NCBI RefSeq assembly: GCF_002904165.1
Contig: NZ_CVTD020000008.1
Location: forward strand, 186,001 to 250,000
Length of the DNA: 64,000 nt
Direction of reading: 5' to 3'
Source: Herbinix hemicellulosilytica
Lineage (GTDB): Bacteria; Bacillota; Clostridia; Lachnospirales; Lachnospiraceae
Shown here: positions 35,587-38,523 of the stretch, one piece after another
Position numbering within the stretch: the first letter of the stretch is position 1
Layout: each line of letters starts with the position of its first letter
Made by a program: the position numbers and the translations under genes
Notes under the pieces: model-generated
Database searches by the model: none
What the model was told of the DNA's origin: nothing
The model's input: only the letters and a program-made list of their open reading frames with translations

Positions 35587-35616
35587 AGCCCTTGGCTCAT
35601 ATGCTAAGGGCTTTTA
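35587..35616 (+). terminator. Terminator of lpdA
   Basis: AGCCCTTGGC (35587-35596) pairs with GCTAAGGGCT (35603-35612), followed by TTTTA. Confidence 0.82.
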
Positions 35617-35673: not shown

Positions 35674-35685
35674 GAACGCTTGTTC
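35674..35685. promoter_or_regulatory. LexA (SOS) box 1
   Basis: GAACGCTTGTTC fits the Gram-positive LexA/DinR consensus GAAC-N4-GTTC exactly, with a matching G after it. It lies 9 bases upstream of the -35 box of the radical SAM gene. Confidence 0.78.
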
Positions 35686-35694
35686 GAAAATATA

Positions 35695-35723
35695 TTGACT
35701 AATATTGTGTGATTTGCTATAAT
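35695..35723 (+). promoter_or_regulatory. Sigma-A promoter between two LexA boxes
   Basis: TTGACT (35695-35700), 17 bases, TATAAT (35718-35723). The predicted start is at about 35730, where the second LexA box begins. LexA bound to both sites would cover the promoter. Confidence 0.82.
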
Positions 35724-35729
35724 GAATCA

Positions 35730-35741
35730 GAACAAATGTTT
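35730..35741. promoter_or_regulatory. LexA (SOS) box 2
   Basis: GAACAAATGTTT fits the degenerate form GAACRNRYGTTY. It starts 6 bases after the -10 box and overlaps the expected transcription start. Confidence 0.65.
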
Positions 35742-35761
35742 GGAAATGACGGAGGGTTATT

Positions 35762-37201
35762 ATGGTTATACAGGAAGGTATGTCTATCCAAAGGAAATTA
35801 GAGATTTTATCTATGGCTGCCAGATACGATGTCGCCTGCACTTCCAGCGGAGTTGACCGGAAAGGAAACAATACCGGCATCGGCAACAGCCTGGCCTGCG
35901 GAATCTGCCATACCTTTTCTGCTGACGGAAGATGCATATCCCTTCTTAAGATTCTTTTTACCAATGAATGTATCTTTGACTGCAAATATTGTATAAACCG
36001 CTCTTCCAATGACATAGTCCGGGCATCTTTTACTCCCAGGGAAGTCTGTGAACTTACCATGGAGTTTTACAGGAGAAACTATATAGAAGGGTTATTTTTA
36101 AGCTCAGGTATAAAAATTAGTCCCAATCATACCATGGAACAGATATATGAAACCCTCAGGATGTTAAGGGATGAATATAATTTTAACGGATATATCCATT
36201 GCAAGATAATTCCCGGAACGGACCCCGTTTTGGTCGAAGCTATCGGATGGTATGCGGACAGGCTTAGCTGCAATTTGGAATTGCCTACGGCTGAAAGCCT
36301 GAAAAAACTGGCACCGCACAAGAACAGGAAAAACATACTTAAGCCTATGAGGCAAATTCAGCTTAGACGGGACAGACATAATGAGTATCTGGGTATTGAT
36401 GATGCGGCAAGAAATAGATTGCTTACGGACAGCAGAATTAATATTGACGAAACGGACGGACCGGTTGCCGCAAATATAATAGTTCCCTTTGGAAGAACTC
36501 TACCTGCTAAAAAAAGATTCGCTCCTGCCGGGCAAAGTACGCAGCTTATTATCGGCGCTACCGAAGAAAGCGATTATCAGATAATGACAGTATCCGAGGC
36601 TTTATATAAGAATTTCGGGCTAAAGAGGGTATTTTATTCGGCCTTTGTTAATGTCAATCAGGATGAGAGCCTTCCTTCCACCCTAGACGGGCCTCCTTTG
36701 CTTCGGGAGCACCGGTTATATCAGGCAGATTGGCTGCTTCGCTTTTACGGATTTAAAACCGATGAGCTTTTGGATAATAACAAGCCCAATTTTAATCTGC
36801 TTCTTGATCCAAAGTGCGACTGGGCATTAAGGCATCTGGAACTGTTTCCTGTGGAGGTTAATAAAGCAGATTATCAGACCCTACTTAGAGTTCCGGGAAT
36901 AGGTGTAAATTCAGCCAGAAGGATAATTGCAGCCAGAAAACATGCTGTATTGGATTTTAATGACTTGAAAAAAATGGGAATAGTATTAAAGCGGGCTATT
37001 TATTTTATTACCTGTAACGGCAGGATGATGTACCCTATTAAAATTGACGAAGATTTTATTACAAGACAGTTACTTGCCTCAAATGAACGAATGCCGTTTG
37101 GTATAGATAAGGATATTACTTACAGACAGCTTTCTCTGTTTGATGATGTAAATTTTCAGCCTGATATGCATGATCAAATAAAAATATTATCCCAAGCATA
37201 A
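35762..37201 (+). CDS. Putative DNA modification/repair radical SAM protein (TIGR03916-like)
   Basis: A 479-residue radical SAM enzyme. The [4Fe-4S] cluster cysteines are Cys70, Cys74 and Cys77 in NECIFDCKYC. Additional conserved-looking cysteines lie at 27, 46, 49 and 58 (CGICHTF..GRC). From about residue 370 a helix-hairpin-helix DNA-binding motif is visible (LLRVPGIGVNSARRIIAARK). This is the architecture of the family often found beside, or fused to, DUF4130 or uracil-DNA glycosylase proteins. ATG 35762 follows GGAGGG. The LexA-box promoter supports a role in DNA damage response. The reaction is unknown. Confidence 0.9.
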   Translation: MVIQEGMSIQRKLEILSMAARYDVACTSSGVDRKGNNTGIGNSLACGICHTFSADGRCISLLKILFTNECIFDCKYCINRSSNDIVRASFTPREVCELTMEFYRRNYIEGLFLSSGIKISPNHTMEQIYETLRMLRDEYNFNGYIHCKIIPGTDPVLVEAIGWYADRLSCNLELPTAESLKKLAPHKNRKNILKPMRQIQLRRDRHNEYLGIDDAARNRLLTDSRINIDETDGPVAANIIVPFGRTLPAKKRFAPAGQSTQLIIGATEESDYQIMTVSEALYKNFGLKRVFYSAFVNVNQDESLPSTLDGPPLLREHRLYQADWLLRFYGFKTDELLDNNKPNFNLLLDPKCDWALRHLELFPVEVNKADYQTLLRVPGIGVNSARRIIAARKHAVLDFNDLKKMGIVLKRAIYFITCNGRMMYPIKIDEDFITRQLLASNERMPFGIDKDITYRQLSLFDDVNFQPDMHDQIKILSQA

Positions 37202-37223
37202 AATTATATTCACGAGGTATGCT

Positions 37224-38000
37224 ATGAATACGAAAAAAATCTTTCAGTGTAAAAACAGCATGGACGGTATTTTCACAGCCATTTATGAAGCCTGGAGTTC
37301 GGGATACGGCCATGATAATGTGATGATTGAAGAGTTATGCGAAAAAAACGATTATTCGAATATGCAACTGTTTTCGGAATATATTACGGTTAATACAGAT
37401 ATGGAAAAGGCCCTTAAGGTATCCCGGTCTATAAAACAGAAGATTTCCGAAGAAGCTTTTGAAATAGTTTGCAGGGTAGCCTTATCGGATTACAGGCAAA
37501 AGGGGGATTTAATCTACAGATTTTTGATTTTGGGATTTCGCAGCGGCAGGGATATTGTAAACCATATAAGCAATGATGTGGTAAATCAAATGCTTAAAAT
37601 TAACCGTAATGTAGGCAATGAGGTTCATCATTTTCTGGGTTTTTTAAGATTTTCACAACTGGAAAACAATATATTGTTTTCTGTTATCCATCCAAAAAAC
37701 AATATAATTTCGCTACTAGCTCCTCATTTTGCGGACAGGCTTCCGCAGGAAAAATTTATTATTTTTGACGGAGGGCGTAATATCTGTGCTCTTCATTTAC
37801 CCGGAAGGCCGTGGATAATTTCGGATATTCCCGAAGCCAATCCGGATATGGTTTATAAATTGAAAAATTATGACAATTATAAGGATTTATGGAAAATATT
37901 TTTTGAAAATATAGCAATAAAGGAAAGGATTAATCTGAAACTTCAGAGGAATAATTTACCCTTAAGATACAGAAAAGATATGACTGAATTTCAGTCTTAA
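37224..38000 (+). CDS. DUF4130 / TIGR03915-like putative DNA repair protein
   Basis: A 258-residue protein, partner of the radical SAM gene 22 bases upstream. Recognisable segments are FQCKNSMDGIFTAIYEAW near the start, VGNEVHHFLGFLRFSQL, PHFADRLPQEKFIIFDGGRN and the C-terminal WKIFFENIAIKERINLKLQR. This is the usual companion of the TIGR03916 radical SAM family. The C-terminal part resembles the uracil-DNA glycosylase-linked DUF4130 region. Both genes must be read from the LexA-flanked promoter, as no other promoter fits in the gap. Confidence 0.88.
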   Translation: MNTKKIFQCKNSMDGIFTAIYEAWSSGYGHDNVMIEELCEKNDYSNMQLFSEYITVNTDMEKALKVSRSIKQKISEEAFEIVCRVALSDYRQKGDLIYRFLILGFRSGRDIVNHISNDVVNQMLKINRNVGNEVHHFLGFLRFSQLENNILFSVIHPKNNIISLLAPHFADRLPQEKFIIFDGGRNICALHLPGRPWIISDIPEANPDMVYKLKNYDNYKDLWKIFFENIAIKERINLKLQRNNLPLRYRKDMTEFQS

Positions 38001-38118: not shown

Positions 38119-38523
38119 ATGAAAAGAAAATTAAGCATATTTATGGTATTATGCTGTGTCATTATCTTTGCTTTCACAGCATGTACGGGTAATGAAGGAG
38201 ATAAGACTCCGAATACAAATGATAAGAATAACGGAACAACCAACGAAACCGATGACAAAACCAACGGTGTTAACGATGCAACCGAAGGTGACTTAATCGA
38301 CGGTATTGATAACGGTACAACCGGTGGTACAACAGGCGGATCAACCGGTGGAACAACCGGCAATACCGGTACGACAGGAAACAACGGAACGACAGGTAAT
38401 ACCGGCACAAACGGAAATAACGGAACGACAGGCAATACCGGAACAACCGGAAATAACGGAACAACAGGCACTAACGGTACGACCGGTAACAACGGAACAA
38501 CAGGCAACGGAACTACACCGTAA
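38119..38523 (+). CDS. Lipoprotein with collagen-like Gly-X-Y repeats
   Basis: A 134-residue secreted lipoprotein. The signal peptide (residues 1-21) ends in FTAC, with Cys22 as the lipidated residue. Residues 23-65 are an Asn/Thr/Asp-rich spacer. From residue 78 to the end there are 17 uninterrupted Gly-X-Y triplets in which X and Y are only Thr or Asn, preceded by a GTTG-type four-residue repeat. It has an excellent ribosome binding site (AGGAGGAG). No proline appears in the triplets, so any triple helix would need glycosylation or other stabilisation. The opposite strand is open only because of the repeat. Confidence 0.83.
   Translation: MKRKLSIFMVLCCVIIFAFTACTGNEGDKTPNTNDKNNGTTNETDDKTNGVNDATEGDLIDGIDNGTTGGTTGGSTGGTTGNTGTTGNNGTTGNTGTNGNNGTTGNTGTTGNNGTTGTNGTTGNNGTTGNGTTP
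38314..38517. repeat. Tandem DNA repeat encoding Gly-Thr/Asn triplets
   Basis: Units of 9 and 18 bases such as GGAACAACCGG and GGTAATACCGG recur with third-base variation across about 200 bases inside the lipoprotein gene. Repeat number may vary between strains. Confidence 0.8.

Follow-up and report, generated by a model that had tools for sequence, protein, structure and literature searches.

The 64,000-nucleotide window analyzed here (positions 186,001 to 250,000 of contig NZ_CVTD020000008.1, assembly GCF_002904165.1) comes from Herbinix hemicellulosilytica, a member of the Lachnospiraceae, and contains a two-gene operon whose promoter is flanked by two LexA-type operators. The first gene (35762..37201, forward strand) encodes a radical S-adenosylmethionine (SAM) protein of 479 amino acids from family TIGR03916, and the second (37224..38000, forward strand) a protein of 258 amino acids from TIGR03915 that carries the domain DUF4130. 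Ahead of both lies a sigma-70 type core promoter, TTGACT-17-TATAAT (35695..35723, forward strand; 11 of 12 matches, with TG preceding the second hexamer), which ranks first among the 16 promoter-like sites found between 35500 and 38150 (9.6 expected). A terminator-like hairpin (35587..35612, forward strand), formed by a 10-pair stem and then TTTATTATGT, sets the operon apart from the upstream open reading frame, which we take to be dihydrolipoamide-dehydrogenase-like from its sequence, with no database match behind the name.

Operator 1, GAACGCTTGTTC (35674..35685), is nine bases from the -35 hexamer, and operator 2, GAACAAATGTTT, lies at 35730..35741 (neither is assigned a strand). Since the two flank the promoter, operator 2 sits at about the expected transcription start. 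The LexA box consensus of Bacillus subtilis is CGAACRNRYGTTYG, and each operator, extended by one flanking base per side, has one mismatch to it (the forms in the window are CGAACAAGCGTTCA, for an operator read on the minus strand, and AGAACAAATGTTTG). The 14-base core of operator 2 is the same as the Clostridioides difficile recA operator given in the available part of PMC4234289, where surface plasmon resonance showed C. difficile LexA to bind the recA promoter among others. A preliminary description of this DNA had proposed an SOS-type promoter in front of a radical SAM/DUF4130 pair, with Gram-positive LexA boxes at 35674-35685 and 35730-35741, the second on the predicted transcription start, and the DUF4130 gene 22 bases behind the radical SAM gene. 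The coordinates proved exact, the second box agrees with the core promoter, and the gene spacing follows from the stop at 37201 and the start at 37224; the SOS assignment itself is supported by the matrix ranking and by the boxes upstream of orthologues, both given below.

The pattern GAACNNNNGTTY matches the window six times (one palindrome is counted on both strands) against 2.47 expected, a count that was reached in 5 of 100 shuffles. Allowing one mismatch at most, a search of the whole genome (3.04 Mb) for the 14-base consensus yielded 12+7 sites compared with 13+14 for a reversed-pattern control, and a second box scan yielded 118 matches compared with 185 for the reversed pattern. As single boxes are not above chance genome-wide, single-box statistics were not used as evidence alone. 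The window was also scored with a matrix trained on 41 recA operators from 30 relatives, which included no site from the window operon. Operators 2 and 1 came out as the top two positions, at 15.7 and 12.2 bits, and the third scored 9.6. Rank, placement and conservation thus lift the two operators above chance. The host genome encodes LexA (241.6 bits) and RecA (571.7 bits), with boxes in the intergenic region before lexA and CGAACAGATGTTCT just upstream of recA.

In a survey of 150 family genomes, each from a different genus, TIGR03916 matched in 91 and exceeded its cut-off in 87. A first set of orthologues comprised 84 of the 87 (the window and the truncated genes of genomes G031 and G063 were left out), and at least one box was found between -300 and +20 in 78 of these loci. 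A second set was drawn from the best 80 of 589 confirmed named contigs, ranked by similarity, leaving out four loci for which no start was found (L168, L169, L175, and L180); a box was present in 60 of 76 loci, and two viral loci, excluded before pooling and uncounted, had no box of this type. Both sets and the window, thinned of near-identical proteins, gave a pooled set of 153 loci. Boxes occurred in 133 of them (203 sites). The reversed pattern gave 2 of 153, shuffled sequence a mean of 2.3 (never more than 8 in 100 shuffles), and coding windows 5 of 459. Pairs of operators 50-66 bases apart were seen in 37 of the 153 loci, the window included; scored without a control, the best promoter-like sequence between the paired boxes matched at 9 or more of 12 positions in 28 of these loci and at 7 or 8 in the others. 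The positive control, recA, had boxes in 30 of 30 loci, and SplB-type lyases, another radical SAM repair family examined in the same taxonomic family, had LexA boxes in 0 of 12 (3 over the family cut-off and 9 weaker). Phylum-wide, where positions were counted from the protein-alignment start and locus L343 offered only 92 bases, boxes were found at 20 of 29 loci and in 13 of 18 families, with none for the reversed pattern. In Pusillibacter (Bacillota), two boxes of the Gram-positive type stand at -185 and -156, and Acetoanaerobium has one such site at an uncertain start.

Homologues in a plasmid collection extend the survey to Alpha-, Beta- and Gammaproteobacteria, Bacteroidota and Fusobacteriota. 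In all nine alphaproteobacterial loci (L187, L189, and L305-L311) we found GAAC-N7-GAAC at most 45 bases from the assumed start; for comparison, PMC8565304 describes the LexA motif of this class as GTTC-N7-GTTC. The reversed pattern was found in none of the nine, and shuffles averaged 0.065 with a maximum of 1 in 200. Cupriavidus, the sole betaproteobacterium, has CTGTATATCCATACAG at -21 (0 of 1000 shuffles), which is of the CTGT-N8-ACAG type, the LexA box of Beta- and Gammaproteobacteria. The operator before the same operon therefore tracks local LexA specificity, as boxes arisen by chance would not. The comparison of orthologues' upstream regions that the preliminary description had proposed as a check has thus come out in its favor: boxes stand before 78 of 84 loci of the family and 20 of 29 of the phylum, and boxes of other, lineage-specific types before those of Alpha- and Betaproteobacteria.

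The plasmid collection itself held a homologue in 158 of 72,556 records, of which 7 are typed conjugative and fifteen were examined. Some records, for example a 2.1 Mb Fusobacterium record, resemble chromosomes filed as plasmids (listed loci L188, L190, L306, and L314).

Membership in a LexA (SOS) regulon was judged on three points, and each was found here: LexA and RecA are both encoded in the host genome, an operator of the type of the lineage overlaps the promoter of the window operon, and the operator is kept upstream of orthologues above chance (133 of 153 against a shuffle mean of 2.3). Judged from sequence, SOS membership of the pair appears nearly certain, and regulation by LexA is very likely.

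The radical SAM protein matches TIGR03916 (rSAM_link_UDG) over the full length of the model (1-415) at 659.9 bits, compared with a cut-off of 343.5, and the general Pfam Radical_SAM model at 27.2, just below its cut-off of 29.5. Both features anticipated for it are present: the CxxxCxxC cluster is C70/C74/C77, and a C-terminal helix-hairpin-helix (HHH_3) spans residues 364-404 (E 3.4e-6). Cysteines 26, 49, 58, 70, 74, and 77 are invariant across 46 aligned proteins, and the same six recur in a set of 13 proteins drawn from four phyla, in all 12 that were readable (the Acetoanaerobium row was left out); C352 and C418 are as a rule not kept outside Firmicutes. The invariance of C26, C49 and C58 makes it likely that they form a second metal site. 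Fold matches of the structure model are general radical SAM barrels, including HydE, lipoyl synthase and the activating enzyme of pyruvate formate-lyase, and a PDB sequence search with the profile of the protein returned, at E<=0.1, three weak matches (a ComEA-related helix-hairpin-helix protein, HydG, and dihydroorotate dehydrogenase).

The partner scored 248.7 against TIGR03915 (cut-off 112.25) and 168 against PF13566, DUF4130 (cut-off 27). Its pairing with the radical SAM gene is close to constant, as a DUF4130 match was found in 83 of 84 loci of the first set, and in the second set the DUF4130 gene could be resolved at 70 of 76 loci, lying within 300 bases at 68 of these 70. The structure model (m79f54da0bab2) is confident, with a predicted local distance difference test score of 89.4 and a predicted template modeling score of 0.84. 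Its best Foldseek matches were DHH phosphoesterases (E 1.5e-5), although the five at E<=0.001 had TM-scores of 0.34-0.44 when scaled by query length. Profile comparison by hhalign did not confirm this hint, giving probabilities of 1.2% and 0.1% against DHH compared with 99.3% for the positive control NrnA/RecJ, and no DHH model was among the best 25 of 30 Pfam families at E<=10. An assignment as a DHH phosphoesterase was thus not adopted. A PDB sequence search gave two insignificant matches and a profile search none, and a viral scan with DUF4130 gave no relative. The phage family phrog_6306, of unassigned function, matches DUF4130 residues 1-111 (window 37224-37556) at E 1e-22.

In all eight alphaproteobacterial partners scanned, TIGR03915 is followed in one protein by TIGR03914 (UdgX), both over cut-off, and the Ensifer and Cupriavidus partners have a fitting length and UdgX motifs, by motif only. 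Each of the ten partners from Alpha- and Betaproteobacteria has motif A GEQPG and the histidine-bearing KRRxH-type loop, and the eight that were checked also have a motif-B-like HP(S/A)(Y/H)(L/I)LR, slightly off the published form. These are the signatures of a uracil-DNA glycosylase that captures abasic DNA covalently through H109, according to the available part of PMC10359453. TIGR03914 was over cut-off in none of 119 phylum genomes, and the weaker matches in 83 of them read, from their sequences, as family-4-like glycosylases. The association of DUF4130 with UdgX suggests that the lesions are uracil or abasic sites.

We propose that the two genes constitute a LexA-repressed SOS operon acting on damaged DNA, an explanation that we hold, as a whole, to be probable. 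In the undamaged cell, LexA would occupy both operators, one upstream of the -35 hexamer and one at the transcription start, and so block RNA polymerase. Following DNA damage, RecA-driven cleavage of LexA would free the promoter and induce the operon. Its first product would be a DNA-binding radical SAM enzyme with a CxxxCxxC iron-sulfur cluster, a probable second metal site (C26/C49/C58) and a helix-hairpin-helix, and its second the DUF4130 protein, a near-constant partner with which it may form a complex. The helix-hairpin-helix, the UdgX fusion and the SOS control are the reasons for which we infer that the pair works on DNA. Most likely it would act directly on the damage: DUF4130 would present the lesion or process it, and the radical SAM enzyme would turn the 5'-deoxyadenosyl radical on the damaged nucleotide. 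The strength of this proposal differs among its parts: a role in DNA-damage handling is highly probable, radical chemistry on DNA itself is somewhat favored, and an origin of the lesion from uracil or an abasic site is a tentative suggestion. The preliminary description had regarded damage-inducible control as direct evidence for a repair role with radical chemistry; such control does support a role in the damage response, but says nothing direct on the chemistry.

Several observations weigh against this proposal. Boxes are missing from 20 of the 153 pooled loci, and the named set includes a boxless block of more distant loci, several of them named Oscillospiraceae (L166, L167, L173, L176-L179, and L181-L184). 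The pooled loci share ancestry and so do not represent 153 independent events. Acinetobacter baumannii, Bacteroides finegoldii and Fusobacterium vincentii had no LexA box among the patterns tried, and no such gene name appears in the C. difficile LexA table, the presence of the gene in C. difficile not having been tested. Furthermore, the Acinetobacter and Bacteroides partners consist of TIGR03915 (DUF4130) alone, with no UdgX, the host genome of the window has no UdgX-type match (TIGR03914), and the structure model of the radical SAM protein (m067af86b2383) is of low confidence in the N-terminal cysteine region.

The alternative that survives best, though we regard it as unlikely, is that the radical SAM protein is a maturase or activase of DUF4130 or of another protein, with DUF4130 as the DNA-acting part. 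The tight pairing described above (83 of 84 loci; 70 of 76 resolved, 68 of 70 within 300 bases) would be expected of such an arrangement, the DNA glycosylase is fused to DUF4130 and not to the radical SAM protein, and the Foldseek matches of the latter include the pyruvate formate-lyase activating enzyme and other protein- or cofactor-directed radical SAM enzymes. However, matches to a generic radical SAM barrel say nothing on substrate, and the radical SAM protein has a helix-hairpin-helix of its own, which is typical of DNA-binding proteins.

A more specific form of the DNA-directed proposal, which we consider rather improbable in its entirety, is an SOS-induced pathway that directs radical SAM chemistry at nucleotides that are abasic or derived from uracil, with or without a UdgX trap. 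In Alpha- and Betaproteobacteria, UdgX would excise uracil and trap the abasic sugar covalently, and the attached DUF4130 and the radical SAM enzyme would resolve or repair the trapped nucleotide; in Firmicutes, the same pair would work without the trap. If true, this would represent a radical route to abasic-site repair and the missing downstream partner for UdgX.

It is less probable still that the pair is a vegetative version of spore photoproduct lyase (SplB), directly reversing UV-induced pyrimidine dimers. The combination of a radical SAM protein with SOS control fits such an enzyme, SplB is reported in SOS regulons in the available text of PMC8565304, and DUF4130 has been described as associated with SplB-like photolyases (PMC3765255). 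However, three NCBIfam families were matched at E<=0.001 and the lyase family TIGR04070 was not one of them; the host genome has no match to it either. Where the family does show lyase-type matches, in 39 of 150 genomes (3 over cut-off), they fall on separate genes, and none of the 12 that were tested has a LexA box. In addition, no spore photoproduct lyase is among the 50 fold matches listed for the radical SAM model, and the UdgX linkage indicates uracil or abasic sites instead. On the profile result and the boxless lyase genes, we rejected an SplB-type identity for the radical SAM protein of the window.

Very improbable is the idea that the boxes serve another regulator with a LexA-like operator, or that control by LexA is physiologically minor: the chance-level abundance of single sites genome-wide (12+7 vs. 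13+14, and 118 vs. 185 reversed) would allow it, but the recA-trained matrix puts exactly the two window operators on top, and in Proteobacteria the operator type shifts along with the known LexA motif. Least probable of all is an anti-phage defense or prophage-borne module instead of housekeeping repair, since the homologues (some partial) on ten phage records and two viral contigs, two of the ten with an annotated name, and the phrog_6306 match are set against the absence of a convincing PADLOC match (best E 0.003), the presence of TIGR03916 over cut-off in 87 of 150 family genomes, and the nature of eight of the ten phage records, which are human fecal scaffolds named only Bacteriophage sp.

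Some further features of the surroundings were noted. In 16 of 70 loci, the pair is followed, 79 to 942 bases downstream, by a member of one gene family, and the two members scanned (L112:7231-9615 and L124:2916-5276) are DinG/XPD-like helicases with DEAD_2 and Helicase_C_2, one of which also has a PD-(D/E)XK match. In the window, the operon is closely followed by a short lipoprotein-like gene (38119-38523) that ends in Gly/Thr/Asn-rich repeats and matches the Pfam collagen repeat. Elsewhere in the host genome, the strongest LexA-type site among the stretches scored (19.3 bits; L018, position 301-316; contig C20, 5.7 kb) is near ATP-binding cassette transporter genes, the first open reading frame listed beginning at 665. 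LexA-type boxes of 15.5 and 16.6 bits (L015 and L017; contig C15, about 385 and 407 kb) have prophage-looking neighborhoods, and a site of 15.7 bits (L011, 1863-1878; contig C15, about 26.9 kb) lies some 64 bases before a gene that, from its sequence, is presumably RsmE-like.

TIGR03916 and TIGR03915 are widespread, the former being over cut-off in 87 of 150 family genomes, yet they are named only as putative repair proteins. The lineage-specific LexA boxes before the operon argue strongly, and without recourse to annotation, for a function in the DNA-damage response, and they supply an inducing condition for experiments. The precise physiological role of UdgX is called largely unknown in the accessible part of PMC10359453. 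The fusion of the partner to UdgX in certain lineages reduces the range of lesions worth testing, and it gives UdgX itself a candidate pathway. In the open-license literature we found no experimental study of the TIGR03916/TIGR03915 pair, and none that joins UdgX and a radical SAM protein.

Among known systems, SplB is likewise a radical SAM enzyme of DNA repair, but it belongs to a different family by profile, its 12 tested lyase-type genes lack LexA boxes, and we know of no DUF4130 partner for it. COG4277 we take to be equivalent to TIGR03916. A COG1573-COG4277 operon with a LexA motif is described in Bacteroidetes, with Verrucomicrobia and Alphaproteobacteria cited, in the available text of PMC8565304. 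Like the operons studied here, it is a two-gene LexA-controlled unit, and it includes a uracil-DNA glycosylase; very probably it is the TIGR03916/DUF4130-UdgX operon of Alphaproteobacteria. It differs in that the text available calls it putative base excision repair and does not term the second gene radical SAM, and in that a UdgX part is absent from the window. UdgX of Mycobacterium smegmatis (PMC10359453, as far as available) has motif A GEQPG and the KRRIH-type loop in common with the ten proteobacterial partners and a motif B slightly unlike theirs, and the words fused, fusion and operon do not occur in that text. Other radical SAM genes have been placed under LexA. One belongs to the Gram-positive core SOS regulon in the accessible part of PMC7739468, and is unlikely to be TIGR03916 because B. 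subtilis and Corynebacterium glutamicum, two of the species covered there, were among our control genomes and gave no TIGR03916 match. Another, vnz_31145, is listed in the Streptomyces venezuelae LexA regulon table of PMC9380542, and the Clostridium thermocellum LexA regulon names two DNA repair proteins; all three are at most possible members of TIGR03916/TIGR03915. The nearest precedent is CAC3343-CAC3344 of Clostridium acetobutylicum, predicted in 2013 to be LexA-controlled, with expression data (PMC3828012); by the description in the part of that paper available, these are the same two kinds of protein, a likeness that rests on the description and not on a comparison of DNA or proteins. 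That account, in the same part, covers one species and gives no promoter anatomy, unlike the present survey. Thus, LexA control of such a gene pair had already been predicted and is not new. New here are the recurring double operator around the promoter, which we did not meet in the available portions of the earlier accounts, and, on the same footing, the linking of the Gram-positive pair with the DUF4130-UdgX operon of Proteobacteria, across which LexA boxes of three types occur.

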